Of a DNA stretch of 64,000 bases, positions 32,184 to 64,000 are shown one piece after another. How positions within the stretch are numbered: position 1 is the stretch's first letter; the number at the start of each line of letters is the position of its first letter. Source of the DNA: Haloarcula halophila (GTDB lineage Archaea; Halobacteriota; Halobacteria; Halobacteriales; Haloarculaceae); assembly GCF_029278565.1 (NCBI RefSeq), contig NZ_CP119559.1, positions 2,356,001 through 2,420,000 on the forward strand, in the 5' to 3' direction. The position numbers and the translations under genes were made by a program. The notes beneath the pieces were generated by a model. It had not been told where the DNA came from. It was given only the letters and a program-made list of their open reading frames with translations, and ran no database searches.

Positions 32184-32240
32184 GGAGCGGTTACCATCTG
32201 GCAGGACCGTCGAAAATAAAAGCTATTCCATTGGCCCGAC

Positions 32241-33767
32241 TCACGAACTCACACGGCCTACGATTCGTTCGAGTGGGTCAGCGACACGCGATGGCAATCG
32301 CATAAAAATGGGTTCGAGCTCTGCCGGCCGAACGACCCCCAGTCGGAGGAGGCCAACCGCATACAGCACTGCCCCGACGGGCGGGACGACACCGAGCGCG
32401 AGGATTGGCGTGTCGATGAGCCTCGCAAGCCCGAAGACGGCCACTCCGGCGCCGATACCGACCAGACCGAGTCTCACGAGGCGCAGATCAGCAATCGGAT
32501 TGAATCCGATGCGTCTGGCACTTACTACATGCAAAACGACCATCAACCCGTACCCGATACTGGTCGCGACGGCTGCCCCTCGCATCCCGTAGGGAGGAAT
32601 CAAGAGCAGGTTCAACACGAGATTGAGAACGGCAGCTGTTCCGGTCGCAACAATTAGAATACGCAGGTCCCCCTTGCCCTGCCCGATTGCGAATATCGGA
32701 CGTGCCACCGCAAGCCCGAACGCGCCGGGGAGCAGTAACAACACGATGGGGCCCGTGGCGACGAACTCCGCCCCGAAGTATAGCGGGACGAATGCATCGA
32801 CGAGGGCAGCGATACCCAGCGCCACGATGAGCGTCAGCGCCAGCGTATAGCGGGTGGCTTTCGCAGCGAGGGCTGAGAGTTCCTCGAGACGACCCTCGGC
32901 CCACAACTCCGACGTGGAGTGTAGTAGCGCCATCTGCAGGGCGAAGGGCGCAAACCAGACGAACTCGGCGACCAGCAGCGCTGCACGGTAGTAACCCGTC
33001 GCCGCCCCGCCTTCGAGGGGGCGCAACAGGAGAATATCGACGTGATACAGCGACATCATCAACAGAGTCAACACGACACTCAGCGCATTGAACGAGAGTA
33101 GTTCCCGTGGTTCGGTCTGCAGTGTCGTTGGCGCCCGTTGCCAGAGAGCACGGAGGTCAAGCCGGCGACCCAGCACCGTGACCGCGACAATCGTCCCGAG
33201 GCTGCTAGCGAGGATGTGTCCGACGAGGACGCCCGTAACGCCGTAGCCCAACAGCGCGAGCATGACACCAAAGATACCGAACAGCATCTTCCGGAGAACA
33301 GTGAGCGGTTCGCTGTAGTGTTCGTACCCCAGGCCCATCAGGGTGCTCCGGAGTGTGAGGAACAGCTGTCGAGCCCCGACAAGGATGGCGAGCAGGTAGA
33401 AGTACTGCCGGAACGCCGGGCCCGCAACGGCGTCGACGAGTCCCGCTTTGACGGCGGCGAAAATACAGAGTCCGGTCACGCCGGCGAGCGCGATCGCCAC
33501 GCGGGTATAGAAGCCGAACACGTACTCGGCCCATTCCGTACCACGGTCTTCGGCGATGAATTTGCGGACGCCATCGCTGATACCGGCGTTAGTGAGCACC
33601 ACCAGGACACTGAGTGCTGACAGCATGAACGCGTAGTCACCGTACTGGCCGCTGCCGAGTGCTCTGACCAGCAATGGTGTCACGATAAGGCCGACGAGGA
33701 CCCCGCCGACATCGCCCGAGAGTACGGAGATGAACCCCCGAAGCAGGTTCCGATTTAATTCGCTCAT
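32241..33767 (-). CDS. Flippase of the MOP/Wzx family (second copy)
   Basis: 508 residues with about 14 membrane segments; N-terminus LLRGFISVLSGDVGGVLVGL then TPLLVRALGSGQYGDYAF is the typical start of haloarchaeal oligosaccharide flippases. It resembles the 23815 gene in layout (VDILLLRPLEG versus ADILLVELFQG; YGMRGAAVATSIGYG versus YGIFGAGIGTMISY) but is GC-rich and clearly diverged, so it is not a recent duplicate. Likely exports the lipid-linked glycan made by the GC-rich set of transferases. Next to FkbM methyltransferase and GT39-like genes, all minus strand. Confidence 0.9.
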   Translation of the reverse strand: MSELNRNLLRGFISVLSGDVGGVLVGLIVTPLLVRALGSGQYGDYAFMLSALSVLVVLTNAGISDGVRKFIAEDRGTEWAEYVFGFYTRVAIALAGVTGLCIFAAVKAGLVDAVAGPAFRQYFYLLAILVGARQLFLTLRSTLMGLGYEHYSEPLTVLRKMLFGIFGVMLALLGYGVTGVLVGHILASSLGTIVAVTVLGRRLDLRALWQRAPTTLQTEPRELLSFNALSVVLTLLMMSLYHVDILLLRPLEGGAATGYYRAALLVAEFVWFAPFALQMALLHSTSELWAEGRLEELSALAAKATRYTLALTLIVALGIAALVDAFVPLYFGAEFVATGPIVLLLLPGAFGLAVARPIFAIGQGKGDLRILIVATGTAAVLNLVLNLLLIPPYGMRGAAVATSIGYGLMVVLHVVSARRIGFNPIADLRLVRLGLVGIGAGVAVFGLARLIDTPILALGVVPPVGAVLYAVGLLRLGVVRPAELEPIFMRLPSRVADPLERIVGRVSS

Positions 33768-34927: not shown

Positions 34928-36847
34928 TCAGCCCAGCAGGTCAGCCTCGTACTCGCTGGCGCGAACCCGTACTGGGAACCATCCTTCTTCGTCGACACCC
35001 AGCAAGGCCTCCGAGTAGCCATCGTCGTCGTTCCCGGCCTTCGCCGATCGCACCCAATTAGCCTCACGCTCGCTTAGGCCGAACCACTCGGCCAGTTCTG
35101 ATGCCGCCTCGTCCACTCGATGAATAAGCGTCATTGAACAGAGATTCGCGATCGTCTGAGCCTCCGGTGTTAACGCGAACTCGCCGCCAGTCTGGGTAAC
35201 GAATTGCAACGAGAGATCGTAGTGCCGACTGTGACGAACGGCCGTCTCCAAGAAGCCGAGTGACGTAGAATCATTCATCAGATAGTGTGCTTCGTCGATG
35301 ACGAATAGCACACGCTTGTCGGTCTGTTTCGCGCGTTCGTACACGGGGTTGAACAGCACCTGCATCATGAGACTCGTCTCCTGGCGTCCGCGGCTCCCTT
35401 CGTCTTGGTGGAGGTCAATGTAGATGACGTCGCTCTCGAAGTCGAACGCAGTCGCTTCTGCCAGATTCGCCAGGTCGCCGCCGTCGCGGAACGACGGGCG
35501 CAAATCGATGAGCAGCGACTGGACATCCGAGCGAACCCGTTCCTGCTCGCCCTCGGTAACGTACTCGAAGTCCCCAGGGTCAGCCAACATCGCTTCGAGA
35601 ACCGCAATGACATCGCGAACCGTCGGCGAGGGATTCTCGTGTGTATCGGGATCCTGCGTGATACCCTGTCGCTCATAGGCCTCCTGCACGGCTCGCCGAA
35701 GCGTCTGCTTGCGCGCCTCCAGCGGGCTACTGGCAACCGTCTTGAAGAACGTCTCGAAGAAGGTGAGCACCCAGGCGATCTGTTCGGCCCAAGGGTCCAT
35801 ATCTGGCACCGAATCGAGGACGTGCTGGGGGGTCGCTTTCAACTCCAGTGGATTGACGCCACGAGAACCACCGACGGTGATGCGTTCGCCACCGAGCGCG
35901 TCGTTCACGCTGGCAAAGCCTTCCAGTGGATCGAGCATCACAAGCATAGTGTCGGCGTCGTACATCGCACGACGGACCAACTGCAACTTTGTCGAGAAGG
36001 ATTTGCCTGCGCCGAGTTTGCCGATGACCATCGCACAATACCCCGTCTCGCGGGCGAAGCGATCGAGGATGAGTGGACTCTCGTTGAGCGCGTACGTACC
36101 GTACTCGATACCGGGTTCGGCCAGTGCACCGGCGACGAAGGGGAACATCGCGCCGACGGCGCCGCCGAGCATCGGTGTCGTCGCGTGTAGTGACTCATCG
36201 AGACGGTCGACACCCATCGGACTTGCTGAGATCAGCGTGTCCATCTGTGCCCACCGTGGCGTTACGGGAGTGAGATTCGCCGGTGAGCGACGGGCGGTGT
36301 TAGCGACGGCATCCGTATCGAGTTTCTCGCGAGCGGGTCCGCGGACGGTGAGATACATCGACGTATCGAAGGCTCGCATCGACGTGTTCCGTAGCGTATC
36401 GTAGAGTTGACGGTAGTCGTGTAGATCTTTCTCGACGCCGCGGGCGCCAGCCCGGCGTTTCTCCGAGAGGTATTCGAAGTCGGCTTCGAGGTCCTCGATC
36501 CGGTTCTCCAGCGAGTCGAGCGTCTGGTGGGTATCCCGCGGATCGAGGTGGATCGAGATATCCGTCGTCCGGGTCTCGGCCGTCGAGTACAGCGTCTCGA
36601 AGAGGCCGTTCTGTGGTGTGTCGGGATAGCCACCGACCCACAGCGTCCGCGCCCAGGTGTCGCCGGTCCGGACGGCGTTCGGTACCTCCTCGATACTCGA
36701 CGGTGTCACGAGCGTCTGGTGAACGTCCGCAGTCGAGTCGAGGGCGGTCCCAGTCGGCTCGTAGGCGACGATCGCGTCGTCGGCCTCCGACTGCTCCGCT
36801 GTCTCGTCTGTCTCTCGTCGCCAGAACGCTAACCATGAAGGGATCAT
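34928..36847 (-). CDS. VirB4-family conjugation ATPase
   Basis: 639 residues from ATG 36847 (MIPSWLAFWRRETDE); it overlaps the upstream gene by 4 nt (ATGA). An N-terminal domain of about 250 residues is followed by MVIGKLGAGKSFSTKLQ (Walker A, about 275-290) and RVLFVIDEAHYLMND (Walker B, about 505-520), with a HYDLSLQFVTQT sensor-like motif. This is the VirB4/TraC-type ATPase that powers pilus assembly and DNA transfer in type IV secretion. Last gene of a six-gene minus-strand operon. HerA-type ATPases share the motifs but not this neighbourhood. Confidence 0.9.
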   Translation of the reverse strand: MIPSWLAFWRRETDETAEQSEADDAIVAYEPTGTALDSTADVHQTLVTPSSIEEVPNAVRTGDTWARTLWVGGYPDTPQNGLFETLYSTAETRTTDISIHLDPRDTHQTLDSLENRIEDLEADFEYLSEKRRAGARGVEKDLHDYRQLYDTLRNTSMRAFDTSMYLTVRGPAREKLDTDAVANTARRSPANLTPVTPRWAQMDTLISASPMGVDRLDESLHATTPMLGGAVGAMFPFVAGALAEPGIEYGTYALNESPLILDRFARETGYCAMVIGKLGAGKSFSTKLQLVRRAMYDADTMLVMLDPLEGFASVNDALGGERITVGGSRGVNPLELKATPQHVLDSVPDMDPWAEQIAWVLTFFETFFKTVASSPLEARKQTLRRAVQEAYERQGITQDPDTHENPSPTVRDVIAVLEAMLADPGDFEYVTEGEQERVRSDVQSLLIDLRPSFRDGGDLANLAEATAFDFESDVIYIDLHQDEGSRGRQETSLMMQVLFNPVYERAKQTDKRVLFVIDEAHYLMNDSTSLGFLETAVRHSRHYDLSLQFVTQTGGEFALTPEAQTIANLCSMTLIHRVDEAASELAEWFGLSEREANWVRSAKAGNDDDGYSEALLGVDEEGWFPVRVRASEYEADLLG

Positions 36848-37863
36848 CGCGATCCTCCGACGAGCGGGCGCGTCCGTAGCTGCTGGTCCGCCGCCACGCG
36901 TTCGCGTGGTTCGCCGTTCCAGAACTCTGCGACGAGGGTGGTCGCGTCCTCGACATCCACGGTGCGTGCCGTACAGCCCTCGATATCGCGAAGGCCAGCC
37001 TCGACGCGGTGCAGGCGCTCGGCGAGCGCGTCGAACATGGCTGCCCGCTCGTCGCCGGCCCGTGGAGCGAGCCACGCGTCGACGAACAGCCCCACGACGG
37101 GAAGCGTCGCCAGTTTCTCGGTGAGACTCTCCCGTTCGAAGTGGACCTCTTCGGGTGTGACCGAGACGACGACGTAGTGATCCCGGATCGTCATCCGACG
37201 AGTTTCGAGATCCGTCGCGTACCACGAGAGATACTCCTCGATGAGGGTCGACAGGCGTGGATTCGCCTTCACGTCAGGATCGTCGAGTCGGCTCCGGTAC
37301 TGCGCCAGATATTCCTCGACGGGGAAGGGCTGGGTCGTCGAGTAGATCTGGATCGGGAACTCGACGACGGTGTTACAGAAGTCTCGGAAGGCGTCGGTCT
37401 TGGCCGCCCACTCCGCGTCAGTCGCCAGCGCCATCGGCGGTGGACCGACTTGGATCAGCCCGACGAGCGCACCGTCGGTCCGTTCGATCGCGCCGTGTTC
37501 CGGGTGGACGCGTTCGACCTGTGTGTGTTGCTTCGCTGCGTCGTGGTTGAGGCGCTTCTCTCGTCGGGCGAACCCGACGAACGTCTCTATCCACTCCAGA
37601 CTCGTGGTATAGGCTGGCGTCAGGAAGACGAATATGCCACCACAGACGATGGCGACGAGAACGACAGGCAGCGTAAGCGTCTGGAGTCGGTAGCCAGCCA
37701 CCATCAGCGAGGGTGGGAAGACGACCTGGATCAACAGGACGACCGCGACACCCGGAACGAGTGCAACGGCGATGTCGGTCAGCGTGTAGTTGCCGAACAG
37801 TTTGGTTTCGGTCCCGAGTGCTTTCGGGACCCGCTTGGAAGGATCGGTATCGTGCATAATCAC
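36844..37863 (-). CDS. PrgI-type membrane protein with VirB4-N-like domain
   Basis: 339 residues. GTG 37863 gives a 4-nt GTGA overlap with the preceding gene as elsewhere in this operon; ATG 37857 is the alternative. Two membrane segments (about 28-48 and 58-80: LTDIAVALVPGVAVVLLIQV and LTLPVVLVAIVCGGIFVFL) form the PrgI/TrbD-like anchor. A soluble domain with VHPEHGAIERTDGALVGLIQV follows, resembling the N-terminal part of VirB4-type proteins. It therefore looks like the membrane half of a split VirB4 assembly, acting at the inner face of the conjugation channel. Confidence 0.75.
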   Translation of the reverse strand: MIMHDTDPSKRVPKALGTETKLFGNYTLTDIAVALVPGVAVVLLIQVVFPPSLMVAGYRLQTLTLPVVLVAIVCGGIFVFLTPAYTTSLEWIETFVGFARREKRLNHDAAKQHTQVERVHPEHGAIERTDGALVGLIQVGPPPMALATDAEWAAKTDAFRDFCNTVVEFPIQIYSTTQPFPVEEYLAQYRSRLDDPDVKANPRLSTLIEEYLSWYATDLETRRMTIRDHYVVVSVTPEEVHFERESLTEKLATLPVVGLFVDAWLAPRAGDERAAMFDALAERLHRVEAGLRDIEGCTARTVDVEDATTLVAEFWNGEPRERVAADQQLRTRPLVGGSR

Positions 37864-39107
37864 TGGATGTAGCGCGGAGCGTCGTCGATCGCCGTCCCAT
37901 CGGAGTCGGTCCGCGTGCCCGATCCTCGGGATGTTCCGTCCGGTCGCGAACGGAGATTCGAGAAGTCCGCGTCTCGTTCCGCCCTCGACCGGTCGGTGCT
38001 GTCTGCGAGCGAGCCACCACCGCCACCACGACCGCCGCCACGCCGTTCGAACGTCTCTGTCACGCTCGTCGCCGCCGAATGCAGTCGAGAGCCAGCGGTG
38101 TGGGCACGGGAGTTCCCAGAATGGAGGACGGTCTGTCCGTCAGATCGAACTGCGGGCTGGCCCCGAGCGCCGCGGACGAAGTTCTGCCCGCCCTGGACGC
38201 CGGTCTTTCCCGCCTCACTACCGCGAGCTAACCGATCGCTCGCACGCTGTGACGAGAGGCGCTGTGAGGCGCGGTCAGCCATGAAGAAGATCGCGCCAGC
38301 CTGCCAGAACAGGACGAACGGCGCGGCGATGGCGACGATCGGGATGACAAGCGCCATCAGCCACTGCCCGAATCCCTGCATCGAGAGGTCGACGCTCCCG
38401 CCGATGAGTTCCCCCAGCCGGAACAACAGCGCGACGGGTATAGTCATGAAGAGGAACGGTGTGTAGAAGCCCGCTAATCGGCTCATCAACCGCGAGACCT
38501 GAACGAACGGACCAACGCCGGGAATCCAGAAGACGATCAGCAGCGGCATCAACACGACGAAGAGGTAGAGAACCACTTGGCGGATGAAGTACAGCAGTGC
38601 GATCAGGACGAACAACAGCAGGTCTGTCAGGAGTGCGATAGCGATTCCCAGGACGCTCATCGCTCCGAACGAGAGCGTCTCGAAGAGCGTGATGTCCGAG
38701 AGGTCGGGCAATAGAAAGCCAGTAAGTACATTCACGAACTGCAGCGAGAGCGCAGCGACCCACCACCACATCAGAATGCCAAGGAGCCCGGCGAACGCCC
38801 GCCGCTTGAGCTTCGCCTGGTGATAGCTCCCGAAGAGGTGACTCGTCGATTCCAGAAAGATGACCAGGCCAATCGACAGTGCCCAGAGGAACAGACTGAG
38901 CGGGATCATGGTGTCCCAGTAGAAGTCATACACTGCGGGCCAGGGGTCGTTCGTCGGCTGGCCGAATACTGTATCTGGGGTCGGTGTGCCGACGACAATT
39001 TTCAACAGCGGGTCGACATAGTCCTCAATCAAACTCTCAATCGGGATCACAAGGATTCGGATGAGATCCTTCAGTGACTCGATAATGACATCTCCGATAG
39101 TGCTCAT
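37860..39107 (-). CDS. VirB6/TrbL-like polytopic channel protein
   Basis: 415 residues. About seven hydrophobic segments lie between residues 60 and 280 (for example MIPLSLFLWALSIGLVIFLE and IALLYFIRQVVLYLFVVLM). They are followed by a long Gly/Arg/Ser-rich disordered tail containing RRGGGRGGGGGS. This is the layout of VirB6/TrbL inner-membrane channel subunits of type IV secretion systems; sequence similarity cannot be judged by eye. It overlaps both neighbours by 4 nt. Tail may contact DNA or partner proteins. Confidence 0.72.
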   Translation of the reverse strand: MSTIGDVIIESLKDLIRILVIPIESLIEDYVDPLLKIVVGTPTPDTVFGQPTNDPWPAVYDFYWDTMIPLSLFLWALSIGLVIFLESTSHLFGSYHQAKLKRRAFAGLLGILMWWWVAALSLQFVNVLTGFLLPDLSDITLFETLSFGAMSVLGIAIALLTDLLLFVLIALLYFIRQVVLYLFVVLMPLLIVFWIPGVGPFVQVSRLMSRLAGFYTPFLFMTIPVALLFRLGELIGGSVDLSMQGFGQWLMALVIPIVAIAAPFVLFWQAGAIFFMADRASQRLSSQRASDRLARGSEAGKTGVQGGQNFVRGARGQPAVRSDGQTVLHSGNSRAHTAGSRLHSAATSVTETFERRGGGRGGGGGSLADSTDRSRAERDADFSNLRSRPDGTSRGSGTRTDSDGTAIDDAPRYIQ

Positions 39108-39982
39108 AATCCTGTCTCCGCATTCTCGGGCTGCGGGGAGATTGCTACCCTAGAGCAGACAAAGTCGTTCACCAGACCAACTGATGTCTGTTCCCCGCCG
39201 GCCTTGATTCGGACTGTTTGTTCAAGGGGCTCACCTACGGCTGTCCCGACGATTACCGTCATATCCCTCTCGATATCGCAACTATCCCAGTCGTTGCTCG
39301 TAAAGAGGAGAGGACCAATTCCTTCGACGTAGGTCTGTTGACCTCCTGGGGGAAGGAGTATGTCATCAAGATTGCTCGGCTCAGCAAAGGATGGCAACCC
39401 AGGTCCACGTAAGTAATCATTGTTGACTGTCCAGTTCGGTGCGTCTTGATACGTGAAGTCTGATACCCACGTCGGGCCGGTTCCCACGTTCTCGATTCGA
39501 ACTACGATCTGTGCGAGATCCGCAGTCCATTCACCGTCCCGATACTGCGAGATATCGAGGATTCGGAGTTCCGGGACCAGATCAACGGGAACCGACACGG
39601 GATCGGCATCGGATTCGGGGACCGTAACGAGGGTGTACTGCCCGGGCTCGTAGTGGTCGTAAGAGGCGAGTCCCCACTCGATATCGAGAATCTCGATCCG
39701 GGCGGTAGTCGCACCAGTCGGGATCGTCGCGCTCCCGAAGAGCGTCCCGTCGGGGGCGATCAGGTTCAGCCGTGAGACAGTGTGATCGTCAACCAGTCGA
39801 ACCACGAGGGCGTTCCCTTCTGTCCCGATGTCCTCGAAGACGGACGGAAGCGGTGTTGTTGTCGGGGTTGGCGTCGGTGTCGTGACTGCCGATGGAGTCT
39901 CGGAACCCCTACAGCCAGCGAGGGCAGCGACACCCGCCAGCAAGCCCGAACGGAGTAACGCTCGCCTGGTAATCGAGGCCAT
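39104..39982 (-). CDS. Tat-type lipoprotein in T4SS operon
   Basis: 292 residues from ATG 39982, which overlaps the upstream stop as TGATG. Residues 1-24 (MASITRRALLRSGLLAGVAA then LAGC) form a twin-arginine-type signal ending in a lipobox Cys. A Thr/Pro-rich linker follows (TTPTPTPTTTPLP) and then a beta-rich exterior domain. By position it would sit on the outer face of the membrane as a surface part of the conjugation apparatus. No family recognised. Four-nt overlap with the VirB6-like gene. Confidence 0.75.
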   Translation of the reverse strand: MASITRRALLRSGLLAGVAALAGCRGSETPSAVTTPTPTPTTTPLPSVFEDIGTEGNALVVRLVDDHTVSRLNLIAPDGTLFGSATIPTGATTARIEILDIEWGLASYDHYEPGQYTLVTVPESDADPVSVPVDLVPELRILDISQYRDGEWTADLAQIVVRIENVGTGPTWVSDFTYQDAPNWTVNNDYLRGPGLPSFAEPSNLDDILLPPGGQQTYVEGIGPLLFTSNDWDSCDIERDMTVIVGTAVGEPLEQTVRIKAGGEQTSVGLVNDFVCSRVAISPQPENAETGL

Positions 39983-41661
39983 CAGAGGCCCCTCCAGGGT
40001 GGCCACAGCCGCCAGCCAGTGGCACGGTCGACGATGAAGACGGCGAACAGGAACAACGAGACCGGAACCGCGAACTCGAAGAGGATCGCGAGCACGGCAA
40101 TGGTGGGACTATCGAGAGCGACCACATCGGAATCACCACGGTAACCAGGGATATCGACCCACCAGTGGCCGGGTTCATACCGGGCTGTGATGCCACCGAC
40201 TGGTCGGGTAATCGTAAGAATCGCCATACCTACACCGTTCGTTTGGATCTGGCGACCCTGGACGAAGACTGATCCATCCCGTCCGGTGGTGTTGATCGGT
40301 GCGCCGGTCTGGGCGTCCCGAAGCCACACTCGGACGGTGACGCGCTGACTTGTCTCGTTCTGGACCGTCAGCGTGAGGTTACTTCGCCGAATCGGCACTC
40401 GCGCAAACGATGTGTTCGGGACGGTCGTGTCGGTCCCCCGAACGAGCCCGAAGGCGGTGACGTTCTCCAGAGTCGTACCATCCGTCTGCGTTCGTGTCGC
40501 GATCCCGTAGCTGGCGACGTACCGTCCTTCGAGCACGTCGAGGTGGATGTGTTCCGGAAGCTCCGGAGAGTCCATCCGCACGCCGTAGGTGTCTACGAGC
40601 TGTATCGTCGACCGGTTCGACGGGGTCGGCCCGGATTCGACCGGAAACGCTGCGGCCTGTACTGGGACGGCCGGCGATGGTGCGCTCGTCTGGCCACGCT
40701 CGGTACTCGTCACCAGCGTGTCCCATTCGCCATCACGAGCGGCGTAGAACCGCCAGACGCCTCGAACCGAGCCACCGGGAACAGCGTAGCCCAGCCACGG
40801 CTGGTTCTTGTAGACCACGAGACCGAGGTCGCCATCGAGATAGGTGGCTCGATACCCAGAGACCGAGAGTTCGTAGCGGACGACCTCGACCTCGTCGGAG
40901 ACGGTGACTGTCTCGTTCACTTCCGTGAGAGTCCGATTCACAGCCGTGCAGGTCCCGTTTCGATCCCAGGCAAGACAGGTCTCGGTACGTTTCGTCAGTG
41001 AAACGTCGACATCGGCTTCCAATCGGAGGGTGGAGGGCTGGCCACCGTACCCGCCGAGGGTGTATGGCAGTTCTACCAACCGGGTCCCGCTGGCGTTCGC
41101 AATCTCGGTCTCGTTGGCGAGTAACCGAACGCGTCGGATCTCGTGCGTGGTCAGATTCCAGGATTCGCTCCGGTTCGTTGTCGTAGTCGCCGGTGGGAGG
41201 GCGATTCGATAGTCAATCATCCCCAGAACGCTTCCGTTGGGCGCGACGTAGAGCGGTTGGTCCGTCGGCGAGAGCCGAGCACGCGTCGACGGCTGGATAG
41301 CGAACACCGAGACGTGGGCGTCGCGGATGAATTTTTCGTCGGTTAACGTCGCGTTCTCCCGGTAGACCGATCGGTTCGTGTCGGTCACTGGAACGTCCCG
41401 GAGATCGCCACGGTTCCACCGCTCGACAGCTTCGGGTGGTGAGTCGAGTGGGATATCTGTCGCAGCGGCCAGCGTACACACGTCGGTCGCGTTCTCGGTC
41501 TGGTTCATCCAGCGAGTCAGGTTCGAGACGTCCTCGTCGCCCGCCCAGAGGGTGCAGTACGTGGTCTCGTCGACCCCGTGGTCGGCGCCGTCGGGAGGCT
41601 GGCTCGCCGAGTACCCCGTCACCGCAACGGCGAGTGCAAGCGCTGCCATACAGATAGTCAT
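39982..41661 (-). CDS. Secreted, membrane-anchored, sequon-rich surface protein of T4SS operon
   Basis: 559 residues from ATG 41661 (MTICMAALALAVAVTGYSAS, a signal-like helix); a TTG at 41688 would add nine residues. A long exterior region with about 19 N-x-S/T sites (NLT, NQT, NAT, NRS, NGS, NVT and others) precedes one C-terminal membrane segment (AVLAILFEFAVPVSLFLFAVF) and a short basic-aromatic tail. The sequon density suggests heavy N-glycosylation outside the cell. Role inferred from the operon: an exposed part of the conjugation machinery, perhaps for cell contact. No family recognised. Confidence 0.78.
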   Translation of the reverse strand: MTICMAALALAVAVTGYSASQPPDGADHGVDETTYCTLWAGDEDVSNLTRWMNQTENATDVCTLAAATDIPLDSPPEAVERWNRGDLRDVPVTDTNRSVYRENATLTDEKFIRDAHVSVFAIQPSTRARLSPTDQPLYVAPNGSVLGMIDYRIALPPATTTTNRSESWNLTTHEIRRVRLLANETEIANASGTRLVELPYTLGGYGGQPSTLRLEADVDVSLTKRTETCLAWDRNGTCTAVNRTLTEVNETVTVSDEVEVVRYELSVSGYRATYLDGDLGLVVYKNQPWLGYAVPGGSVRGVWRFYAARDGEWDTLVTSTERGQTSAPSPAVPVQAAAFPVESGPTPSNRSTIQLVDTYGVRMDSPELPEHIHLDVLEGRYVASYGIATRTQTDGTTLENVTAFGLVRGTDTTVPNTSFARVPIRRSNLTLTVQNETSQRVTVRVWLRDAQTGAPINTTGRDGSVFVQGRQIQTNGVGMAILTITRPVGGITARYEPGHWWVDIPGYRGDSDVVALDSPTIAVLAILFEFAVPVSLFLFAVFIVDRATGWRLWPPWRGL

Positions 41662-41675
41662 GTAACTCTGTGGCC

Positions 41676-42086
41676 TCAGAAGCCGCAACTCGCGCCTCCG
41701 GCAACGACGTTGTCGAGCAGGAACGCGACGATCGCGGTTCCGAGCGGTGCGGCGATGATACCCCAGACGACGGCCTGGTTACGCGTCTCTTTCAGCTCTT
41801 TCTTCAGGTCGGCCCGGCGCACGGCTGGCAGCGCCACGGTAGTCCCCAGCGCGATCACGCCGCCGATAAGCGGCCCACCGAACTGGATGAGGGTAAAGAG
41901 GTTCTTGATCGTCTGAGCGATGTCGGTCCCACAGAAGTCCGTCCCGGTGGTCTGTGCGAGTGCAGGTTGGCTCGCCAGCAACGTCACGGCGAGAACGGTG
42001 AGCAACGGGAGTCGGAGGTCGGCAACGCGAACAACTGTACTGTCTGGTTTCTTCGGGGCAATCCCCGAGTCGGCATCGGTTGACAT
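41676..42086 (-). CDS. Small membrane protein, candidate VirB2-like pilin
   Basis: 136 residues from ATG 42086; upstream frame is open but non-coding in character. Residues 30-50 (LPLLTVLAVTLLASQPALAQ) form a cleavable signal with an AxA site. Two hydrophobic segments follow, LIQFGGPLIGGVIALGTTVA and AVVWGIIAAPLGTAIVAFL, separated by a charged loop (RRADLKKELKETR). A signal peptide plus two helices with a basic loop is the VirB2/TrbC pilin plan. First gene of the operon, as expected for a major subunit. Two Cys (FCGTD and SCGF) could pair outside. Confidence 0.65.
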   Translation of the reverse strand: MSTDADSGIAPKKPDSTVVRVADLRLPLLTVLAVTLLASQPALAQTTGTDFCGTDIAQTIKNLFTLIQFGGPLIGGVIALGTTVALPAVRRADLKKELKETRNQAVVWGIIAAPLGTAIVAFLLDNVVAGGASCGF

Positions 42087-42370: not shown

Positions 42371-43540
42371 TTACTCGCGTGCCGCTGCGAACCGCTCACG
42401 CAGTGTGGCTTCGCGGCGCTCGAACTGGGCAGCCTTCGCCTTCACATCCTGACTCACGCGTTCGAGTTGTGCTAAGGCGACCTGACTCGCCAGATCGGTC
42501 TGTCCGTCAGCCTCGGTGTCGGCGGCTGCCTGTTCCTCGTAAGCTCGTTCCACCGTCTCGATGGTCGCCTCCGGATTGAACAGGATGTCGTTCGCCACGC
42601 GGACGTAGCGATCCAGCGCCGCCCCCTCCTTCCCGTCGAAGAAGTGCGTCAGGGCGTACGTCGCCCCCGAATGCAACGTCCACATGTCGATCTCGTGTAG
42701 ATCGGTCGCCTCTGCCCTCGCATCCTCGGCCGCCCGTGCTGCCAGGTAGGCGGGAACGTCCAATAACTCGAAAAACTCCTCGACACCGAAGGGCACTGCC
42801 GGGAACTCGATCGTGATCTCGCCGGCGTCCTCGATGAACGCCAGTAAGTCGTTCGCGACGAGCCCGATCTGTTCGAGCGTGGCTTCCCACCACTCCCGGA
42901 AGTCGCCGACCTCGCCGACGTGTTTGACCGTCTCGCGGGCGGTCAGCTGTCGAATCGAGTTCGCACAGTAGCTGTCACGAGCCAGGCCTTCCACGTAGAC
43001 GGCGTGCCCACCGAAGAAGTCGTAGCCCGAGGAGACGCCCATCGTGATCGGCTCTGCCCGGTCGGGCAGCGTCACGGAGAGCCCGTCGAAGAGGATGTCC
43101 ATGTGTACCTCGCCGCCGCCGCGATACCGTCTGATCTCGCCGAAGACCACGTCGCCGAGCTGGTGGCCATCGATCGACTCCTCTCGAAGCACCGCTTCGA
43201 GCGGACCGTAGACGTCGACCGGGTTGATGACCGCATACGACGTCGTCGGGATGTGATACAGCGGGTCCGCACTCTGCTCTTCGGTCGTTTCCTGGTGCTC
43301 CTGGTTGTGGGTCTTCGCCGGGTCGACCAGCGCGTTGAACCGATCGGTCGGCACCCACTCGCCCGTCCGTGGGTCGTTATATGCGACTGTCGTCTCGATG
43401 GCTCTAGGGAGGCTCCGGATCGCCTCGGCGAAGGAAATCGGGTCGCCACCGTCGGTCCGTCGTGCGTACCACGACGGGAGTCCGCCGTTCGTTCGTCCGT
43501 CGACACCTGCAAACAGGGTGGTCGTCTCTGGTGGTTGCAT
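42371..43540 (-). CDS. Mobile-element-associated protein of unknown function (DUF932-like)
   Basis: 389 residues from ATG 43540 (MQPPETTTLFAGVDGRTNGG). Features include TTSYAVINPVDVYGPLEAVL, GYDFFGGHAVYVEGLARDSY and SIRQLTARETVKHVG, and a glutamate/alanine-rich, probably helical C-terminus (residues 330-389). The arrangement recalls DUF932 phage/plasmid proteins, but similarity is faint. Placed just upstream of the T4SS operon on the same strand, it may be part of the element's maintenance or transfer functions. No catalytic motif seen. Confidence 0.6.
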   Translation of the reverse strand: MQPPETTTLFAGVDGRTNGGLPSWYARRTDGGDPISFAEAIRSLPRAIETTVAYNDPRTGEWVPTDRFNALVDPAKTHNQEHQETTEEQSADPLYHIPTTSYAVINPVDVYGPLEAVLREESIDGHQLGDVVFGEIRRYRGGGEVHMDILFDGLSVTLPDRAEPITMGVSSGYDFFGGHAVYVEGLARDSYCANSIRQLTARETVKHVGEVGDFREWWEATLEQIGLVANDLLAFIEDAGEITIEFPAVPFGVEEFFELLDVPAYLAARAAEDARAEATDLHEIDMWTLHSGATYALTHFFDGKEGAALDRYVRVANDILFNPEATIETVERAYEEQAAADTEADGQTDLASQVALAQLERVSQDVKAKAAQFERREATLRERFAAARE

Positions 43541-43673: not shown

Positions 43674-45080
43674 TCAGTCAGCGACGGTCGACCCGGATGT
43701 GATGAGATCGTCCATCTTCGAGAGAGTATAGAGTGACCAGTGCTCGCCGAGGTCGTCTTCGAGGCCATCGATAAACCCGCTTTTCGAGAACAGTACGAAC
43801 CGTTCGTCTCTGTCCTCGGGCCCCCACCGAACGTTCGGCGCTTTCGCTCGCAGACTCTCGACGAGTGGTTTCCCAACGGGATCAGTCGTCCATTTGCACT
43901 CGGCGAGCAGTATCCGGTCGTCGGCCGGGGCGAGGCCGACGATATCTATCTCGTCTTCCCCGTACCACCACCGACCGACCTCCGAGTACGGCTCGAAGTC
44001 ACCGCGTCGAATACCTTCCCAGATTGCTTCTTGGCAGATATCCTCGAACGTCGTTGCAACATGAGTCGGCAGATCAGGGGCAATCGTCCCGTCGTAGACG
44101 ACACCCGGCGCTTCCTCGATACTGGAGCGATTCGGCTCGACGTACCGGAACCAGAACCGGAGGAACTCGTCCGCGACGCGGTACCGCGACCGTTTCGACT
44201 TCTTGTCTGTGGCAGTCACTGGGACTTCCCGGTCGATCAGCCGGAGCCGTCGAAGCGTTTGCAGATACTTCGACAACGGGCCGACATCGATTCCAGTCGC
44301 TCCAGCGATCTCGTTCGGTGTCGTGTGCCCCAGTGCAACGGCTTCGAGAATGCTCATGTACCGAGCCGGATTCCGGAGTTCCGTCCGAAGCAAGAACTCC
44401 GGCTCGTTGTACAACACTGCCGACGGCGACAGCACCTGATCTCTGATGTTCTCCGTAAGCGATTGTTGGTAGTCGAACAACGTGAGATACATCGGCGTCC
44501 CGCCGGTGATCGAATAGGATCGAATTGCATCCGCTATCCCATACGTGATAACTTCACGGGCGTCCTGAAACGAGAACGGTTGTACGTCGAGTTGTGCGGT
44601 ACGACGCCCATATAACGGACTCTCGTGACCAAGCACTTCCGACTCCATCGTACTGACACTCGATCCGCAGAGAACCAACATCGATTCGGTCTGCTGGAGG
44701 TGCTCGTCAACAAACCCCTGTACGTAGGACGGAACCGAGTCATTCTCCTCGACGAGATACGGGAACTCGTCGATCACAACCACGACTTCTTCGGAGCGGA
44801 GTTTCTCCCCGAGGTACTCGAACGCCTCGTCCCATCCATCGATTCGCGGTACGCGTTCATCGAAATACGCAGCGACTTGATCGATGAATTTCTCGCGCTG
44901 TCGATTCTCGGCCTCCTGTGCCGCCAGGAAGTAAATGTGTGGCCGGTCAGCACAAAACTCCTTCAGCAACTCCGTCTTACCGACCCGCCGCCGCCCATAG
45001 ACGACGAACACGTCCGACCCAGTCGACTCGAACGCAGACACCAGCGCATCCAACTCTTCCGTCCGGTCGTGAAAGGTCAT
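43674..45080 (-). CDS. Archaeal ATPase with C-terminal DUF234 nuclease-like domain
   Basis: 468 residues. FVVYGRRRVGKTELLKEF (Walker A, about 25-42) and VVVVIDEFPYLVEEN (Walker B, about 98-112) define the archaeal AAA ATPase family, followed by a winged helix (GHTTPNEIAGATGIDVGPLS). The C-terminal part has RWWYGEDEIDIVGLA and ILLAECKWT, the D...ExK pattern of a PD-(D/E)XK nuclease as in DUF234. These proteins are common in archaeal accessory DNA, and some act in defence; role here unknown. Stands alone on the minus strand. Confidence 0.88.
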   Translation of the reverse strand: MTFHDRTEELDALVSAFESTGSDVFVVYGRRRVGKTELLKEFCADRPHIYFLAAQEAENRQREKFIDQVAAYFDERVPRIDGWDEAFEYLGEKLRSEEVVVVIDEFPYLVEENDSVPSYVQGFVDEHLQQTESMLVLCGSSVSTMESEVLGHESPLYGRRTAQLDVQPFSFQDAREVITYGIADAIRSYSITGGTPMYLTLFDYQQSLTENIRDQVLSPSAVLYNEPEFLLRTELRNPARYMSILEAVALGHTTPNEIAGATGIDVGPLSKYLQTLRRLRLIDREVPVTATDKKSKRSRYRVADEFLRFWFRYVEPNRSSIEEAPGVVYDGTIAPDLPTHVATTFEDICQEAIWEGIRRGDFEPYSEVGRWWYGEDEIDIVGLAPADDRILLAECKWTTDPVGKPLVESLRAKAPNVRWGPEDRDERFVLFSKSGFIDGLEDDLGEHWSLYTLSKMDDLITSGSTVAD

Positions 45081-46813: not shown

Positions 46814-47167
46814 TCACGGCAGACCCGCCTTTGGTGCTCGTTCCTCGTCCCGTTGCGTCTGTGACTGACCTCCATCCGCGCCTGGTGGTTCTCCAGCCTG
46901 CTGGCAGCGCAACACGTCCAGCAGTGGTCGCTGGATGGCGACAGCAACGCGGTGCTTGCAGGCCCCATCGAAGCTAGTGTCGGCAGGACAGGAACACGAC
47001 ATTGGCAGGCCGTCCTCGACTGTCACGAGGTATTCGTGATCGGAGGGGGTCGCATGGCTCTCGTTTCGAACTAGTATATTCGTCCCGAAAATCGAGAGTG
47101 CGAGTGCTTCGTACTGGGCGCGCTTTGCGACGGTCGTACTGAACTGTAGTTCTTCGAGTGGATGCAT
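46814..47167 (-). CDS. SWIM zinc-finger protein (copy 1)
   Basis: 117 residues from ATG 47167 (MHPLEELQFSTTVAKRAQYE). The SWIM motif CxC-xn-CxH is seen as CSCPADTSFDGACKH at about 75-89. Such fingers bind nucleic acid or protein; the family role in haloarchaea is unknown. Nearly identical over residues 1-100 to the SWIM gene at 51667, but with a different C-terminus (GGQSQTQRDEERAPKAGLP). It precedes the HTH/MazF/DUF433/DUF5615 cluster on the same strand. Confidence 0.85.
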   Translation of the reverse strand: MHPLEELQFSTTVAKRAQYEALALSIFGTNILVRNESHATPSDHEYLVTVEDGLPMSCSCPADTSFDGACKHRVAVAIQRPLLDVLRCQQAGEPPGADGGQSQTQRDEERAPKAGLP

Positions 47168-47216
47168 GGGTTCCGGACGCTCTGAACAGAGCGCCCGCAC
47201 CAGTGTGGGCGCTTAG
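46870..47216 (-). repeat. Duplicated segment, copy 1 (with 51838-52190)
   Basis: About 345 bp covering most of the SWIM gene and roughly 50 bp upstream of it recur at 51838-52190. Identity is very high over the SWIM N-terminal half (for example 47010-47160 against 51980-52130 with only a few differences) and falls off at both edges. Both copies end upstream in a GCGCCCGCACC...GTGTGGGCGC hairpin. Confidence 0.85.
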
Positions 47217-47306
47217 TAAAACACTCTATCAGGATTTGCTCCTCTAAAATCTTCGAGGGCGAGTTCCCCGACCCACCGGGGTCGGGGGTGAAGCCCGACA
47301 CTCGGC

Positions 47307-47749: not shown

Positions 47750-49054
47750 ATGGGCGAAGAAGCCACGAAAACCATTCAGACGCGCCTCCACGTAGCGTCT
47801 GGTGAGCGGTCGTGGCTTCACGACGCCCGCCTCGCGTCACGCGAGATATTCAACGACACCATCCACCTCAAACAGCAAGGGTACAATCGCACCGAGATAC
47901 AGCGAGAGGTTGACCGCGACGACTTCTTGCGGAACAACAAGTGTGCGGTCGTCGGCAAAGCCCTCCAAACGTGGGACTCCTACCAATCGCTCAAAGACTG
48001 GTGGGAGAACCAAGACGACCCTGACGGCGGGAAGCCGACGCCGCCGAGTACGGACAAATCCGGTGCGTACCCGCTCGTAATGGCACACACGGAGGGCTAC
48101 CGCCTCACCGTGGAGGACGACACGAATCGCGTCCAGTTCCGTATCAGCCCGAAACCCTACAAGAAGGTGAACGGACACCTGCGCGGCGACCCGGACGCGA
48201 TGGACGAACTTCGAGATGCCATCACGTCGGATGAGGTGGATGTGGGGCAGGCTGAACTCCTGTACCGCGATGGCGTGTACTACCTACACGTCACGGTCAC
48301 ACGCGAGTTCGACGTGCCCGAACCCGATACTGCCGATACGGTAGTCGGTGTAGACATCAACGAGCGCAACGTCGCGCTCACCGCCCTCGACCGCGAGACG
48401 ATGCGGACTAAAGGCACGCTCGTCCTCGACTACGGACGAGTGAAGCAAGAACGCCAACGCTACCACACAATCACCACTCGCTGTCAGGAATACGGCAAGA
48501 CGAGCATCCACCAGAAACTCGGTGACAAGGAAGAGCGATTCACCGAATGGATGCTGCACCGTCTCTCTCGTGCTGCCGTGGAGTTCGCGGAGCAGTTCAC
48601 GAACCCGGTTATCGTGTTCGAGGATATGGGCGGCATCCGTGACGAAATCAAGTACGGGACGTATATGAACCGCCGATTGCACAAACTGCCGTTCCACAAG
48701 TTCGAGAAGTTCGTCTCGTACAAGGCGACGTGGCGAGAGATTCCGACGGACACGGTGGACGCCTATCATAACTCGAAGATGTGTTCGTGCTGTGGTGAGC
48801 GTGGGTCTCAGCAGGGGCGGCGGTTCCGCTGTACGAACGACGAGTGTGATGTGGCGCAAGACCACGCCGACCGGAACGCGTCGGTGAACATCGCGTGGCG
48901 CGAGACGGCGAAACTCGACGGTAATACGACGAATTACCGGACTCACAAAACCCAGCCACAGGTTCGGTTGGTGCGTCTGTCCGGGTCGGGGCGTGTAAGC
49001 CGCCCAACCTCATCCCGCTCGCTTGCCGAGCAGGGAGTGCTAGCGCACGGCTGA
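47750..49054 (+). CDS. tnpB: TnpB RNA-guided nuclease-family protein
   Basis: 434 residues from ATG 47750 (MGEEATKTIQTRLHVASGER); in-frame ATG at 47723 is possible. RuvC residues: VVGVDINERNVAL (Asp), IVFEDMGGIRDE (Glu) and QDHADRNASVNIAWR (Asp). The zinc finger is CSCCGERGSQQGRRFRCTND followed by C (four Cys). TnpB proteins are ancestors of Cas12 and cut DNA guided by an RNA from the element's 3' end. Intact. Usually helps retain the element at its site. Confidence 0.95.
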   Translation: MGEEATKTIQTRLHVASGERSWLHDARLASREIFNDTIHLKQQGYNRTEIQREVDRDDFLRNNKCAVVGKALQTWDSYQSLKDWWENQDDPDGGKPTPPSTDKSGAYPLVMAHTEGYRLTVEDDTNRVQFRISPKPYKKVNGHLRGDPDAMDELRDAITSDEVDVGQAELLYRDGVYYLHVTVTREFDVPEPDTADTVVGVDINERNVALTALDRETMRTKGTLVLDYGRVKQERQRYHTITTRCQEYGKTSIHQKLGDKEERFTEWMLHRLSRAAVEFAEQFTNPVIVFEDMGGIRDEIKYGTYMNRRLHKLPFHKFEKFVSYKATWREIPTDTVDAYHNSKMCSCCGERGSQQGRRFRCTNDECDVAQDHADRNASVNIAWRETAKLDGNTTNYRTHKTQPQVRLVRLSGSGRVSRPTSSRSLAEQGVLAHG

Positions 49055-49157
49055 GGGAACCAACAAAAGCCTCGGGCCACCGCGCCCGAGGCTGTTTACA
49101 GGTAACAGCGAGAGTTCCACGGGTCACCTGACCCGTGGGTGAATCGCGTACGCTCGC

Positions 49158-54102: not shown

Positions 54103-55041
54103 CTATATCGACGCTGCCAGCTCGCGCACTGACTCACGGTTGTTACGCACAGTAACCGCACAGACGCCCGCAGCAGCCGCAATCTCGGCTTGCTGGACGG
54201 CCACACCATGCTCAGTCGCCGCCGAGAGGAGACAGGCTGCGGCGAATCCCGCGGGATGTTTCCCCGCGCTCACCCCCGTTTCGTGGGCACGCACAGCGAC
54301 CTCCGTTGCTCGGGAGACGACTGCCTGGGGTAGCTTGATATCGGCTGCGATGGGACCAATGAACTCACTCGGAGAGCGGGGTGGAATCGGCAACCCGAGT
54401 GTCTCGTTGAGTGTGCGATAGCAGTTCAGCACCCGGCGCTCGGAGACGTGCGCGCATTCGGTTAGCTCCGCTAGCGAGCGGGTGATACCTGCGAGGCGAC
54501 AGCAGGCATACACACAGCCGGCGGCCATTCCTTCGATCGAGCGCCCACGGAGGAGGTCTTCCCCCTGCGCACGCCGGAACAGCGTACTGGCCTGTTCTCT
54601 GAGTGAGCGGGGCAGATCAAGTGCGGCAGTCAGCCGGGCGATATCGACCAAGCCGTGAGTGAGGTTCCGTTCGGCTTTCGATCCCCATCGCCCGCGGCTG
54701 TGCTGTCGCCGGAGCCGAGAGAGCTGTCGTCGTTTCTTGTCGGACAGGTGGGTACCACGGCTATCAACTGCCCGCCCGATCTCCGAGGAGATACCTCTGT
54801 CGTGGCGCGTTGCCGTTGACGGGGGCCCAGTCCGCTTTCCCGAGCGGTCAGCCTCCGAGTCTGTCCACGCCGTTGCACCGTGATCGAGATAATAGCTATC
54901 GACGATGAGGCCACATGCCTGACAACTTGTCTCTCCGCCATCTGTTTCTAGCTCGCCGGGACACTCTGGACAGGTTGTCCCCGTAATCGTTTGCCCGGTC
55001 CCTTCGTCGAAGCCGCGTTCGTAGACGTTTCTGGTACTCAT
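54103..55041 (-). CDS. tfb: Transcription initiation factor B (TFB paralogue)
   Basis: 312 residues from ATG 55041. The zinc ribbon is CPECPGELETDGGETSCQAC (two CxxC pairs, about 24-43), followed by the linker/B-reader region. Two cyclin repeats come next, including RSIEGMAAGCVYACCRLAGI and KHPAGFAAACLLSAATEHGV. Haloarchaea keep several TFBs with different promoter preferences; this copy lies in accessory DNA beside toxin-antitoxin genes and is divergent from a winged-helix regulator. The linker is unusually rich in Arg/Ser. 227-bp gap on the far side (53876-54102) shows nothing convincing. Confidence 0.93.
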   Translation of the reverse strand: MSTRNVYERGFDEGTGQTITGTTCPECPGELETDGGETSCQACGLIVDSYYLDHGATAWTDSEADRSGKRTGPPSTATRHDRGISSEIGRAVDSRGTHLSDKKRRQLSRLRRQHSRGRWGSKAERNLTHGLVDIARLTAALDLPRSLREQASTLFRRAQGEDLLRGRSIEGMAAGCVYACCRLAGITRSLAELTECAHVSERRVLNCYRTLNETLGLPIPPRSPSEFIGPIAADIKLPQAVVSRATEVAVRAHETGVSAGKHPAGFAAACLLSAATEHGVAVQQAEIAAAAGVCAVTVRNNRESVRELAASI

Positions 55042-55196
55042 TGGACTCACGCAAGGCCGTGTTGTTCGTGCAGGCCCCGCACCCGTCAGGGGCCAAAAAA
55101 TACGGGCGGTGCGTTACCGGGGGCTGTGGGATGCATAGCAACGAGTCAGTCGCTTCCGTGGGTATGCGGACCCACCGGAACAGCTTTATGACACAA

Positions 55197-61358: not shown

Positions 61359-62210
61359 CTATCTCCCCGAGTTCTCTCGCTCCGGGAACTCGATGCGACT
61401 CCAGCCCGTCAGCGCCACCGAGAGGCGTCCTTCGTACCAACTCATGGCGACCGCCCGGAATCTGACGCGCTCGCCGTCTCGAACCCGCGGCTGCTTCGAG
61501 GCCCGCCAGACCGTGAACTTCGTCGTCCCGGACTCGTCTTCGATCAGTCCCACCTGAGCGATCGCTCGCGTGCTCGGCTTCCAGAGCGTCGTGATTCGCC
61601 CCTCGATGCACACTTCCTGTTGGTTCACGTCGCCCAGTTTCCCGATCGGAACGATGGTTCCCGGTGCGAGCCACTCAGCTTCGGTGACTGCTACCGATGC
61701 ATCCACGAGATCCGCGCCGTCTGCCAGCCGCCGAGCCAGTCGCTTCGAGAGCGCCGCCGGGGTCGTTCCCGTCCTGATTCGTTTGCTGATTCTCGCTGCC
61801 TGTTCGTTCACTGCTGCTAACTCCGCTTGTGCCATCTCTGCTCGGGGGTCCACCCTCTCTGGGTCCACCCACGGGTCCACGCTCGCTGCACGCTTGCCGA
61901 ACGCCCGCCGTCGTGCCTGCTGTCCAGCCGCGACACGCTCTCGCGTCCGAACCTCTCTGTCCGAGTCCTGCCTGTGGTCCCACCGGCGTCGCGTCCGCTC
62001 GATCTCCGCCTCGCGTGCTGCCAGTCGTTCCTCCGTCTCCAGGGTCAGTCCCCGTCCACACGCTTCGAAGTGGTTCGTGTCCACCGTCGCCTGTCGCTCC
62101 TGGATCACTGAGGGTCGGAGTTCCACCCGCTCCGCTCTGGTGATCTCTTCCCCATCCGCCGTTTGTTCGTCGTGCGAAACTTCATATCGAATCGAGTTCT
62201 CAGTACTCAT
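61359..62210 (-). CDS. OB-fold nucleic-acid-binding protein
   Basis: 283 residues from ATG 62210 (MSTENSIRYEVSHDEQTADG). The N-terminal 170 residues are charged and probably helical (ETEERLAAREAEIERTRRRW). Residues 195-280 form an OB-fold: QEVCIEGRITTLWKPSTRAI, GLIEDESGTTKFTVWRASKQ and GERVRFRAVAMSWYEGRLSV resemble single-strand-binding RPA-type domains. Such proteins are common on haloarchaeal plasmids. It is followed upstream by a 690-bp structured GC-rich region, suggesting a replication or transfer role, which is inference. Confidence 0.75.
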   Translation of the reverse strand: MSTENSIRYEVSHDEQTADGEEITRAERVELRPSVIQERQATVDTNHFEACGRGLTLETEERLAAREAEIERTRRRWDHRQDSDREVRTRERVAAGQQARRRAFGKRAASVDPWVDPERVDPRAEMAQAELAAVNEQAARISKRIRTGTTPAALSKRLARRLADGADLVDASVAVTEAEWLAPGTIVPIGKLGDVNQQEVCIEGRITTLWKPSTRAIAQVGLIEDESGTTKFTVWRASKQPRVRDGERVRFRAVAMSWYEGRLSVALTGWSRIEFPERENSGR

Positions 62211-62901
62211 TGCAATCCTCGAAGGCGCCCACTCAGCGTCTTCACTGCTTTCCACGACTCTCCAGCCGTGGCTCTCCATCTCGCGACAGGCTCTCGCGTG
62301 CTGGCCGCGCCTTCATGCGCCCGGAGGGCGCGGCCAGCGCGCGCCGTCGAGAACTACCCTACCAGCACCGCGCGCCCGGCCAGCCCGGCCGAGCGGCCAG
62401 TTTCACGCCGCTTTCGCGTCTGAGGCCCGGTCGAGCCGGTGCGAGGCCGGGCGAGGACCGAAAGCGCACGTGATACTGGCGTCCCGAAAGGGCGAGCGAG
62501 GAGCACAGCGAACGCGTTCGCTGTGACCCGGGCGTCGGCTGGGCGAGCGGGGCGGACCGTGACGTCTGTTTTGGGACTCTCTGTTTCTAGTGCCTACCCA
62601 CGAGGATTCCATTCTGCACGGACAGGAAGCCACGCTCACTGCCGGTCATACAACTGGCTATGGGTGGGGATGAAAGGGGCGGCTGGCTCCGGGAAGACGG
62701 CCGATGCAAGGACCGCAACGTAGTGAGGACCGCAGCGAGGCCCTCGACCGGAGCCAGCCGGGGCTTTCTGGCTGTTTGAGCGTCGATCAGCTCACCTAAA
62801 CACCACCTTCCAGGTAAACGAGAGTTATGCAGTCGATAATATGATCTTGCACATAGCGATGAGTCTCCACACCGAACGATGGCGAGGACGGCTGCGTCGA
62901 C
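62211..62901. other. Long GC-rich non-coding region with inverted repeats
   Basis: 690 bp with no convincing gene. The part at 62300-62480 is extremely GC-rich with GGCCGCGCC/GGGCGCGGCC and CGGCCAG-type repeats in both orientations. The part at 62672-62768 is a long stem-loop described separately. Candidate roles are an origin, transfer origin or structured RNA locus; nothing decides between them. Confidence 0.5.
62672..62768. repeat. Long stem-loop with 13-bp perfect arms
   Basis: CGGCTGGCTCCGG (62680-62692) pairs perfectly with CCGGAGCCAGCCG (62748-62760). Outside it, across GGG bulges on both sides, GAAAG (62672-62676) pairs with CTTTC (62764-62768). The 55-nt loop contains a tandem repeat GAGGACCGCAACG-like unit (AGGACCGCAACG and AGGACCGCAGCG). 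Confidence 0.7.
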
Positions 62902-63908: not shown

Positions 63909-64000
63909 TCACTCGCTCAGCGCGGTGACGACATCCCCAACGGAGAAGAGCCGAAGGTCGTCGCGGTCTGTGGCCGCCTCTTCGACGGATGGGTTGAACC
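63909..64000 (-). CDS. C-terminal end of an unidentified gene (runs off window)
   Basis: The minus-strand frame entering from the window edge reads FNPSVEEAATDRDDLRLFSV then GDVVTALSE and stops with TGA at 63909-63911. The acidic composition fits a haloarchaeal coding sequence. Only about 30 residues are visible, so no family can be assigned. Confidence 0.55.
   Translation of the reverse strand, partial: FNPSVEEAATDRDDLRLFSVGDVVTALSE

Follow-up and report, generated by a model that had tools for sequence, protein, structure and literature searches.

A conserved haloarchaeal type IV secretion operon with a split VirB4 and a remote, linked coupling protein in Haloarcula halophila

INTRODUCTION

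Type IV secretion systems (T4SSs) of the mating-pore (MPF) type MPF_FATA are those of monoderm bacteria and archaea, with pCF10, CD, and pGO1 as prototypes. In pGO1, VirB4 is split into TrsD, a remote homologue of the VirB4 N terminus, and TrsE; PrgI is the equivalent of VirB3 (PMC12102498). Archaeal FATA-type T4SSs and haloarchaeal VirB4/VirD4 elements are already known (PMC12102498, PMC9259645), and such elements have also been reported in thaumarchaea (PMC9259645, PMC6563490). In Sulfolobales and Thermoproteales, the chromosomal import systems Ced and Ted contain homologues of VirB2, VirB4, and VirB6 (PMC9905601); CedB and CedD each provide a portion of the N-terminal domain of VirB4 (PMC11868833). 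Typical relaxases are said to be absent from archaeal conjugation systems; double-stranded DNA is a possible substrate, and the process is thought to be unlike that of bacteria (PMC6563490, PMC11868833). MOB-type matches have been reported in a haloarchaea-dominated plasmidome (PMC8563766). Here, a six-gene operon of Haloarcula halophila is described from a window of 64,000 nucleotides (contig NZ_CP119559.1; G000:C1:2356001-2420000 in our numbering of this 4.04-Mb, four-contig genome). Most probably, it is the MPF module, of an MPF_FATA-like type, that belongs to a conjugative element residing in the haloarchaeal chromosome or to what remains of such an element.

RESULTS AND DISCUSSION

A tightly coupled and conserved operon

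The six T4SS open reading frames (ORFs) lie at positions 34928 to 42086 of the window, all on the minus strand, and encode a VirB2-like pilin, a sequon-rich surface protein, a lipoprotein, VirB6, a PrgI domain fused to the N-terminal piece of VirB4 (PrgI-VirB4N), and VirB4 (Table 1). A first-pass annotation of this DNA had proposed these six genes and identities, and all six ORFs were found at the positions given; their assignment to a T4SS was upheld by the family matches of VirB4 and VirB6 and by a coupling protein nearby. The junctions had been described as mostly 4-nt overlaps. The tight coupling of the genes was confirmed, but only two junctions are certainly of that kind, namely, lipoprotein/VirB6 (stop at 39104, ATG at 39107) and PrgI/VirB4 (stop at 36844, ATG at 36847). 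The surface protein and lipoprotein genes overlap by 1 nt (TGATG at 39982). Between VirB6 and PrgI there is either a 4-nt overlap, from GTG at 37863, or a 2-nt gap, from the orthologue-supported ATG at 37857, and between VirB2 and the surface protein either a spacing of ∼14 nt (ATG at 41661) or a 13-nt overlap (TTG at 41688).

The gene order was kept in more than 20 loci and is syntenic in many haloarchaeal genera. Comparison of the six genes with those of the nearest homologue (locus L025) gave ratios of nonsynonymous to synonymous substitution (dN/dS) from ∼0.11 for VirB4 to 0.37 for the lipoprotein, and all six are under purifying selection. The conserved order, the low dN/dS, and the sequon enrichment of the surface protein argue that the operon is not a chance set of genes.

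In features that may point to MPF_FATA systems, the operon combines a VirB4 whose best family matches are conju_CD1110 and Mbov_0397 with a PrgI-like segment and VirB6, has no outer-membrane parts, and, as with TrsD of pGO1, encodes the N-terminal piece of VirB4 separately (PMC12102498). Unlike those systems, it has the PrgI-like segment fused to that piece, a surface protein forming an array of immunoglobulin (Ig)-like domains, a lipoprotein with a twin-arginine translocation (Tat) signal, and a remote coupling protein, and neither a VirB1 hydrolase nor VirB8 nor a relaxase was recognized.

A VirB4 motor divided between two genes

VirB4 matched the conju_CD1110 model NF045971 with an E value of 1.3e-40 over model positions 188 to 722 of 752 and Mbov_0397 with 3.5e-39, and from these family matches it appears nearest to the VirB4-like ATPases of monoderm elements. 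Its sole relative in the PDB was the VirB4-like protein 4ag5 (3e-17; profile, 9.2e-23). Walker A (GKLGAGKS) and Walker B (VIDEAHY) motifs are present, and GxGKS was invariant in the family alignment (A1). The first-pass annotation had allowed that this ATPase might instead belong with HerA-type helicases; this reading was rejected, as VirB4 matched no DUF87/HerA family in the Pfam scan and its PDB match was to a VirB4 alone. The CedD model NF053655 matched VirB4 at just 1e-4 over ∼60 residues and no CedB match was reported in the family-model scan, so VirB4 was not classed as a CedB/CedD-type ATPase.

The first ∼190 residues missing from VirB4 are encoded by the gene upstream. Its product has two transmembrane helices within a PrgI-like (VirB3-like) segment (PF12666, E value of 0.15), followed by a TrsD-like domain (NF041427, 1.4e-5). 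In 17 related loci, including one on each of two further contigs of this genome (C3 and C4), the two genes form one ORF of 1,017 to 1,160 amino acids in nearly all cases, two being shorter and possibly frameshifted. Structure models were built from alignments with rows from plasmid records left out. The AlphaFold model of PrgI-VirB4N had a predicted local distance difference test (pLDDT) score of 69, and its ten best PDB matches by Foldseek were all R388 T4SS structures of TrwK/VirB4, with E values of 0.005 to 0.04, match probabilities of 0.99 to 1.00, and TM-scores of ∼0.3. VirB4 is therefore split into two genes, as had been proposed, on the combined evidence of the single-ORF relatives, the TrsD match, and the R388 VirB4 structures.

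In a tree of 77 VirB4 proteins, three to four changes between fused and split forms were counted, with the fused forms lying outside. This suggests fission of a fused PrgI-VirB4 ancestor as the direction of change, and at most suggests it, since the backbone of the tree is weakly supported and long-branched. The two forms provide natural evidence on how VirB3, the VirB4 N-terminal piece, and the VirB4 motor fit together.

Channel, pilin, and lipoprotein

VirB6 matched PF19590 (TrbL_3) at 1.9e-21, exceeding the cutoff. For the remaining comparisons, the window element was set against nine others (type-B elements), and gene counts were made by region because the draft assembly of genome G004 is divided between two contigs. 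The VirB2-like pilin has a signal peptide, a basic loop between two hydrophobic helices, and Cys residues near each end of the mature chain; its signal peptide and topology are in keeping with a VirB2-type pilin. Its TrbC/VirB2 match in the Pfam scan was weak (E value of 0.0084), and it was syntenic in 9/9 compared elements. The lipoprotein, which begins with a Tat/lipobox sequence, matched no family in the Pfam and protein-family model scans. It was found in 5/9 elements and was absent between the surface protein and VirB6 in, for example, loci L028 to L030 and L086. As it occurs in many distant relatives as well, it is not specific to this clade and is an accessory, dispensable part.

A sequon-rich surface protein

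The surface protein contains 19 N-x-S/T sequons compared with 3.7 in shuffled sequence, a number reached in 0/2,000 shuffles, and the five remaining proteins of the operon showed no such enrichment. It has a signal peptide, one C-terminal transmembrane helix, and a cytoplasmic tail, WPPWR, that is conserved among close relatives. The AlphaFold2 (AF2) model showed an all-beta, Ig-like ectodomain (pLDDT, 85.4), for which Foldseek returned only generic Ig- or fibronectin type III (FnIII)-like matches, none of the 50 listed exceeding a query TM-score of 0.18. The protein was kept in 9/9 compared elements and is invariant in this clade. The two surface parts that had been put forward as lacking a recognized bacterial counterpart, this protein and the lipoprotein, both hold up, the latter just as an accessory.

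Integrated elements encoding the fusexin Fsx1 are similar in that VirB4, TraG/VirD4, and HerA genes have been published for them in haloarchaea (PMC9259645). They differ in that Fsx1 was not recognized here, while the surface protein has its single C-terminal transmembrane helix and no fusexin among its listed Foldseek matches. A reading of the surface protein as a fusexin or class II fusogen was rejected: PDB and viral Foldseek matches were generic Ig/FnIII-like, flavivirus envelope proteins matched at TM-scores near 0.1, and a disulfide-closed hairpin tip was not conserved.

When 295 genomes of the phylum were searched with a profile, the surface protein was found in 34, of which 31 belong to the same order. 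The three outside it (one further family; genomes G278, G303, and G082, loci L165 to L168) share just the N-terminal ∼200 residues. At L166, the one locus checked, the surface-protein-like gene follows T2SSE/T2SSF (PilB/PilC-like) genes, a juxtaposition suggesting that this module may be shared between archaeal pili and T4SSs.

A flippase-like gene and a membrane glycosyl gene form a pair at 30588 to 33767, near the 3′ end of VirB4. In genome G026, homologues of the pair (55 to 60%) likewise lie directly after VirB4, which raises the possibility that surface-glycan genes move along with the T4SS.

A remote coupling protein linked to the operon

The first-pass annotation had called for a relaxase, a VirD4 coupling protein, and an integrase to be sought outside the window. 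With the coupling protein of pNG600 as the query, one homologue was found in the genome, 1.5 kb beyond the right end of the window and ∼23 kb from the operon, in divergent orientation; the possibility that the element has no coupling protein was therefore rejected. Alone, this TrwB/TraG-like protein gave weak TrwB, TraG-D_C, and DUF87 matches. Among the 15 members of its family, TrwB_AAD_bind was matched by 13/15 (best, 3.7e-10), DUF87 by 12/15, and TraG-D_C by 8/15. These DUF87 matches and a halovirus-type neighbor at 42371 to 43540 could be taken to mean that the operon is not a T4SS but encodes an ATPase of DNA repair (HerA/NurA type) or of virus packaging. Such a reading is scarcely credible and is contradicted by the sequence data, given the TrwB matches in 13/15 members of the coupling-protein family, the VirB4 matches described above, and the presence of VirB6 and pilin genes in the operon.

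Operon and coupling protein were divergent and 11 to 86 kb apart in all 10 elements in which both lie on one contig (nine genomes and the Haladaptatus QDMS2 plasmid). As these elements are related, the layout represents conservation and not ten independent events. Four genomes of the same genus that lack the operon also lack the coupling protein. It is not unusual for coupling-protein and virB4 genes to lie far apart (PMC12102498). Among the closest known systems, the plasmid T4SSs of the pNG600 type (Haloarcula marismortui and others) have the same six genes and the split VirB4, with 50 to 67% identity for VirB6, PrgI-VirB4N, VirB4, and the surface protein; there, however, a homologous coupling protein of 1,456 amino acids directly follows VirB4, and an exonuclease VII-like xseAB pair lies nearby.

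The chromosomal site, together with the missing relaxase and nearby integrase, is also what would be expected of a domesticated T4SS that moves chromosomal DNA, by exchange or import of the Ced/Ted kind, instead of its own element; Ced and Ted are themselves such systems (PMC9905601). This explanation is improbable. Many plasmids bear close homologues, the elements are patchy within one genus and carry toxin-antitoxin, TFIIB-family transcription factor (TFB), and insertion sequence (IS) cargo, and the linked coupling protein was retained in all testable cases. The poor CedD match also counts against it. Ced/Ted systems divide VirB4 otherwise, and no such linked coupling protein has been described for them.

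Relaxase-bearing sister systems in the same genome

On contigs C3 and C4, genes for the surface protein, lipoprotein, VirB6, and PrgI-VirB4 occur in the same order as in the window, as in other plasmid T4SSs with relaxases (L132-L151 type). In contrast to the window, PrgI-VirB4 is one protein, and the same operon continues, in the same direction, with two NikA-like ribbon-helix-helix proteins, a 203-amino-acid relaxase, and VirD4 (PF10412, 2.2e-31). The relaxase matched PF03432 at 1.2e-5, above the cutoff in the C4 copy; Tyr18, His102, and His109-x-His111 were invariant in nine homologues, and the family was present in 25/243 sampled genomes of the order. This coupling of a homologous pore to a relaxase and VirD4 supports reading the window operon as a conjugation pore.

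One genome thus holds both kinds of system side by side, a chromosomal, relaxase-less one with split VirB4 and two relaxase-bearing ones with fused PrgI-VirB4, all with the same surface-protein family, and herein lies the main interest of the locus. A speculative reading, less likely than not, is that haloarchaea use one pore family with two interchangeable DNA-processing modules. One, of bacterial style, would join relaxase, NikA-like proteins, and VirD4 to a fused PrgI-VirB4; the other, lacking a relaxase, would join an OB-fold (oligonucleotide/oligosaccharide-binding) protein and a giant coupling protein to a split VirB4 and may move double-stranded DNA. In both, the sequon-rich Ig-array protein would replace the envelope-spanning parts of bacterial systems. 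Because haloarchaea can be cultured and genetically modified, the question of single- or double-stranded DNA and the role of the surface glycoprotein at the surface layer (S-layer) are directly testable.

Nature of the element

The core found in all compared elements consists of VirB2, the surface protein, VirB6, PrgI-VirB4N, VirB4, the OB-fold protein, and the coupling protein; homologues of the OB-fold protein occur on pNG600-type plasmids. In a conjugative element so composed, the remote VirD4/TrwB-like ATPase would recruit element DNA along with the OB-fold protein and pass it to a two-polypeptide VirB4 motor, in which PrgI-VirB4N, anchored by its two transmembrane helices, would be the platform on which the soluble VirB4 ATPase docks. 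The DNA would be exported via the VirB6 channel, and VirB2 would form a pilus or the channel lining. The membrane-anchored, probably N-glycosylated surface protein may span the S-layer, contacting the recipient or shaping the exit path, and would stand in for the components that diderm systems have in the periplasm and outer membrane.

Several observations weigh against a conjugative element. No relaxase was found in it by Pfam scans, PF03432, PF08751, or a local relaxase model; no tyrosine integrase was present within ∼98 kb (nearest PF00589); no tRNA was found; and no direct repeats at the ends were convincing. Without integrase, tRNA, and end repeats, the element may be immobile. The VirB2 and PrgI family matches are weak taken alone, and the best structural match of PrgI-VirB4N had an E value of 0.005 with a TM-score of 0.34. 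The description of the operon as a conjugation or DNA-export apparatus thus stands as regards the T4SS pore and coupling protein; that it works in conjugation and not in another form of DNA export is our inference, the element having no recognizable relaxase or integrase.

A narrower form of the same explanation, compatible with it, is that a conjugative plasmid, once integrated, has decayed and left an immobile remnant. The missing integrase, the IS605 insertions and duplications in the stretch that separates the operon from the coupling protein, and the glycan genes near the VirB4 end would fit, and we give it a modest chance. Nevertheless, all six pore genes are intact, as is the coupling protein, the dN/dS values are low, and other species retain the layout. 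In genome G013, by contrast, the coupling protein is split over two frames. Co-option of relaxase-less T4SSs has been argued for Patescibacteria (PMC12102498), and with toxin-antitoxin genes nearby, a protein-secreting or contact-killing T4SS might be envisaged. This is very unlikely, as no operon-conserved effector or immunity candidates were seen and the conserved companions are DNA related (OB-fold, SWIM, TFB, and coupling proteins).

Table 1. Features of the operon, the element, and the sister systems
Feature	Position	Strand	Basis
VirB2-like pilin	41676..42086	-	signal peptide (..ALA followed by Q), weak TrbC/VirB2 match, family alignment A7, synteny
Sequon-rich surface protein	39982..41661	-	sequon count, AF2 model, Foldseek, conservation
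Tat-signal lipoprotein, accessory	39104..39982	-	sequence (TRRALLRSG...LAGC)
VirB6/TrbL polytopic membrane channel protein	37860..39107	-	PF19590 TrbL_3
PrgI (VirB3-like) two-transmembrane-helix domain fused to VirB4 N-terminal domain (TrsD-like)	36844..37857	-	PF12666, NF041427, single-ORF relatives, AF2/Foldseek
VirB4 motor ATPase without its N-terminal domain	34928..36847	-	NF045971, PDB 4ag5, Walker motifs
VirD4/TrwB-like coupling protein, 1,223 amino acids	G000:C1:2421480-2425151 = window-equivalent 65480-69151 (L047:1480-5151)	+	TrwB/TraG-like matches
OB-fold (single-stranded-DNA-binding-protein-like) DNA-binding protein, element core	61359..62279	-	PF01336 E 0.0014; 9/9 compared elements
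TFIIB-family transcription factor	54103..55050	-	PF00382 1.1e-33; 8/9 elements
SWIM zinc-finger protein, operon-linked in relatives	46814..47200	-	8/9 elements; PF04434 3.9e-8 in duplicate 51667-52200
ATPase_2/DUF234-like gene, window end	63909..64000, on to L047:~1300	-	adjoins coupling-protein gene, divergent
Compact relaxase	C3:148680-149288 (L049:15681-16292); C4:67619-68227 (L050:12620-13231)		PF03432

Cargo and neighboring genes

The remaining content of the element comprises toxin-antitoxin and transporter genes as well as those of IS605. The presence of a TFIIB gene close to an archaeal T4SS, as here, follows a pattern reported before (PMC6563490). A 91-bp direct repeat with 81% identity (59614-59704; 78374 = L047:14374-14464), spanning the coupling-protein half of the element, was not accepted as attachment sites; by hand translation, it apparently encodes the C-terminal end of a membrane protein. 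The halovirus-type protein encoded just upstream of the operon belongs to phrog_13083 (8e-127), is ∼38% identical to proteins of tailed viruses of the HRTV-7/HSTV-2 type, and also occurs in the elements of genomes G026 and G033. Two ATPase_2/DUF234 genes, ∼42% identical, lie upstream of the pore operon (43674 to 45080) and divergent from the coupling protein, respectively, and in QDMS2 an annotated ATP-binding protein stands beside the coupling protein. Duplicates of the SWIM gene (46861 to 47220 and 51831 to 52191; 92% DNA identity) flank two IS200/IS605 elements that are 74% alike in DNA, with sot2652 RNAs (RF02657) at the 3′ ends of their TnpB genes (48933 to 49119 and 50795 to 50983).

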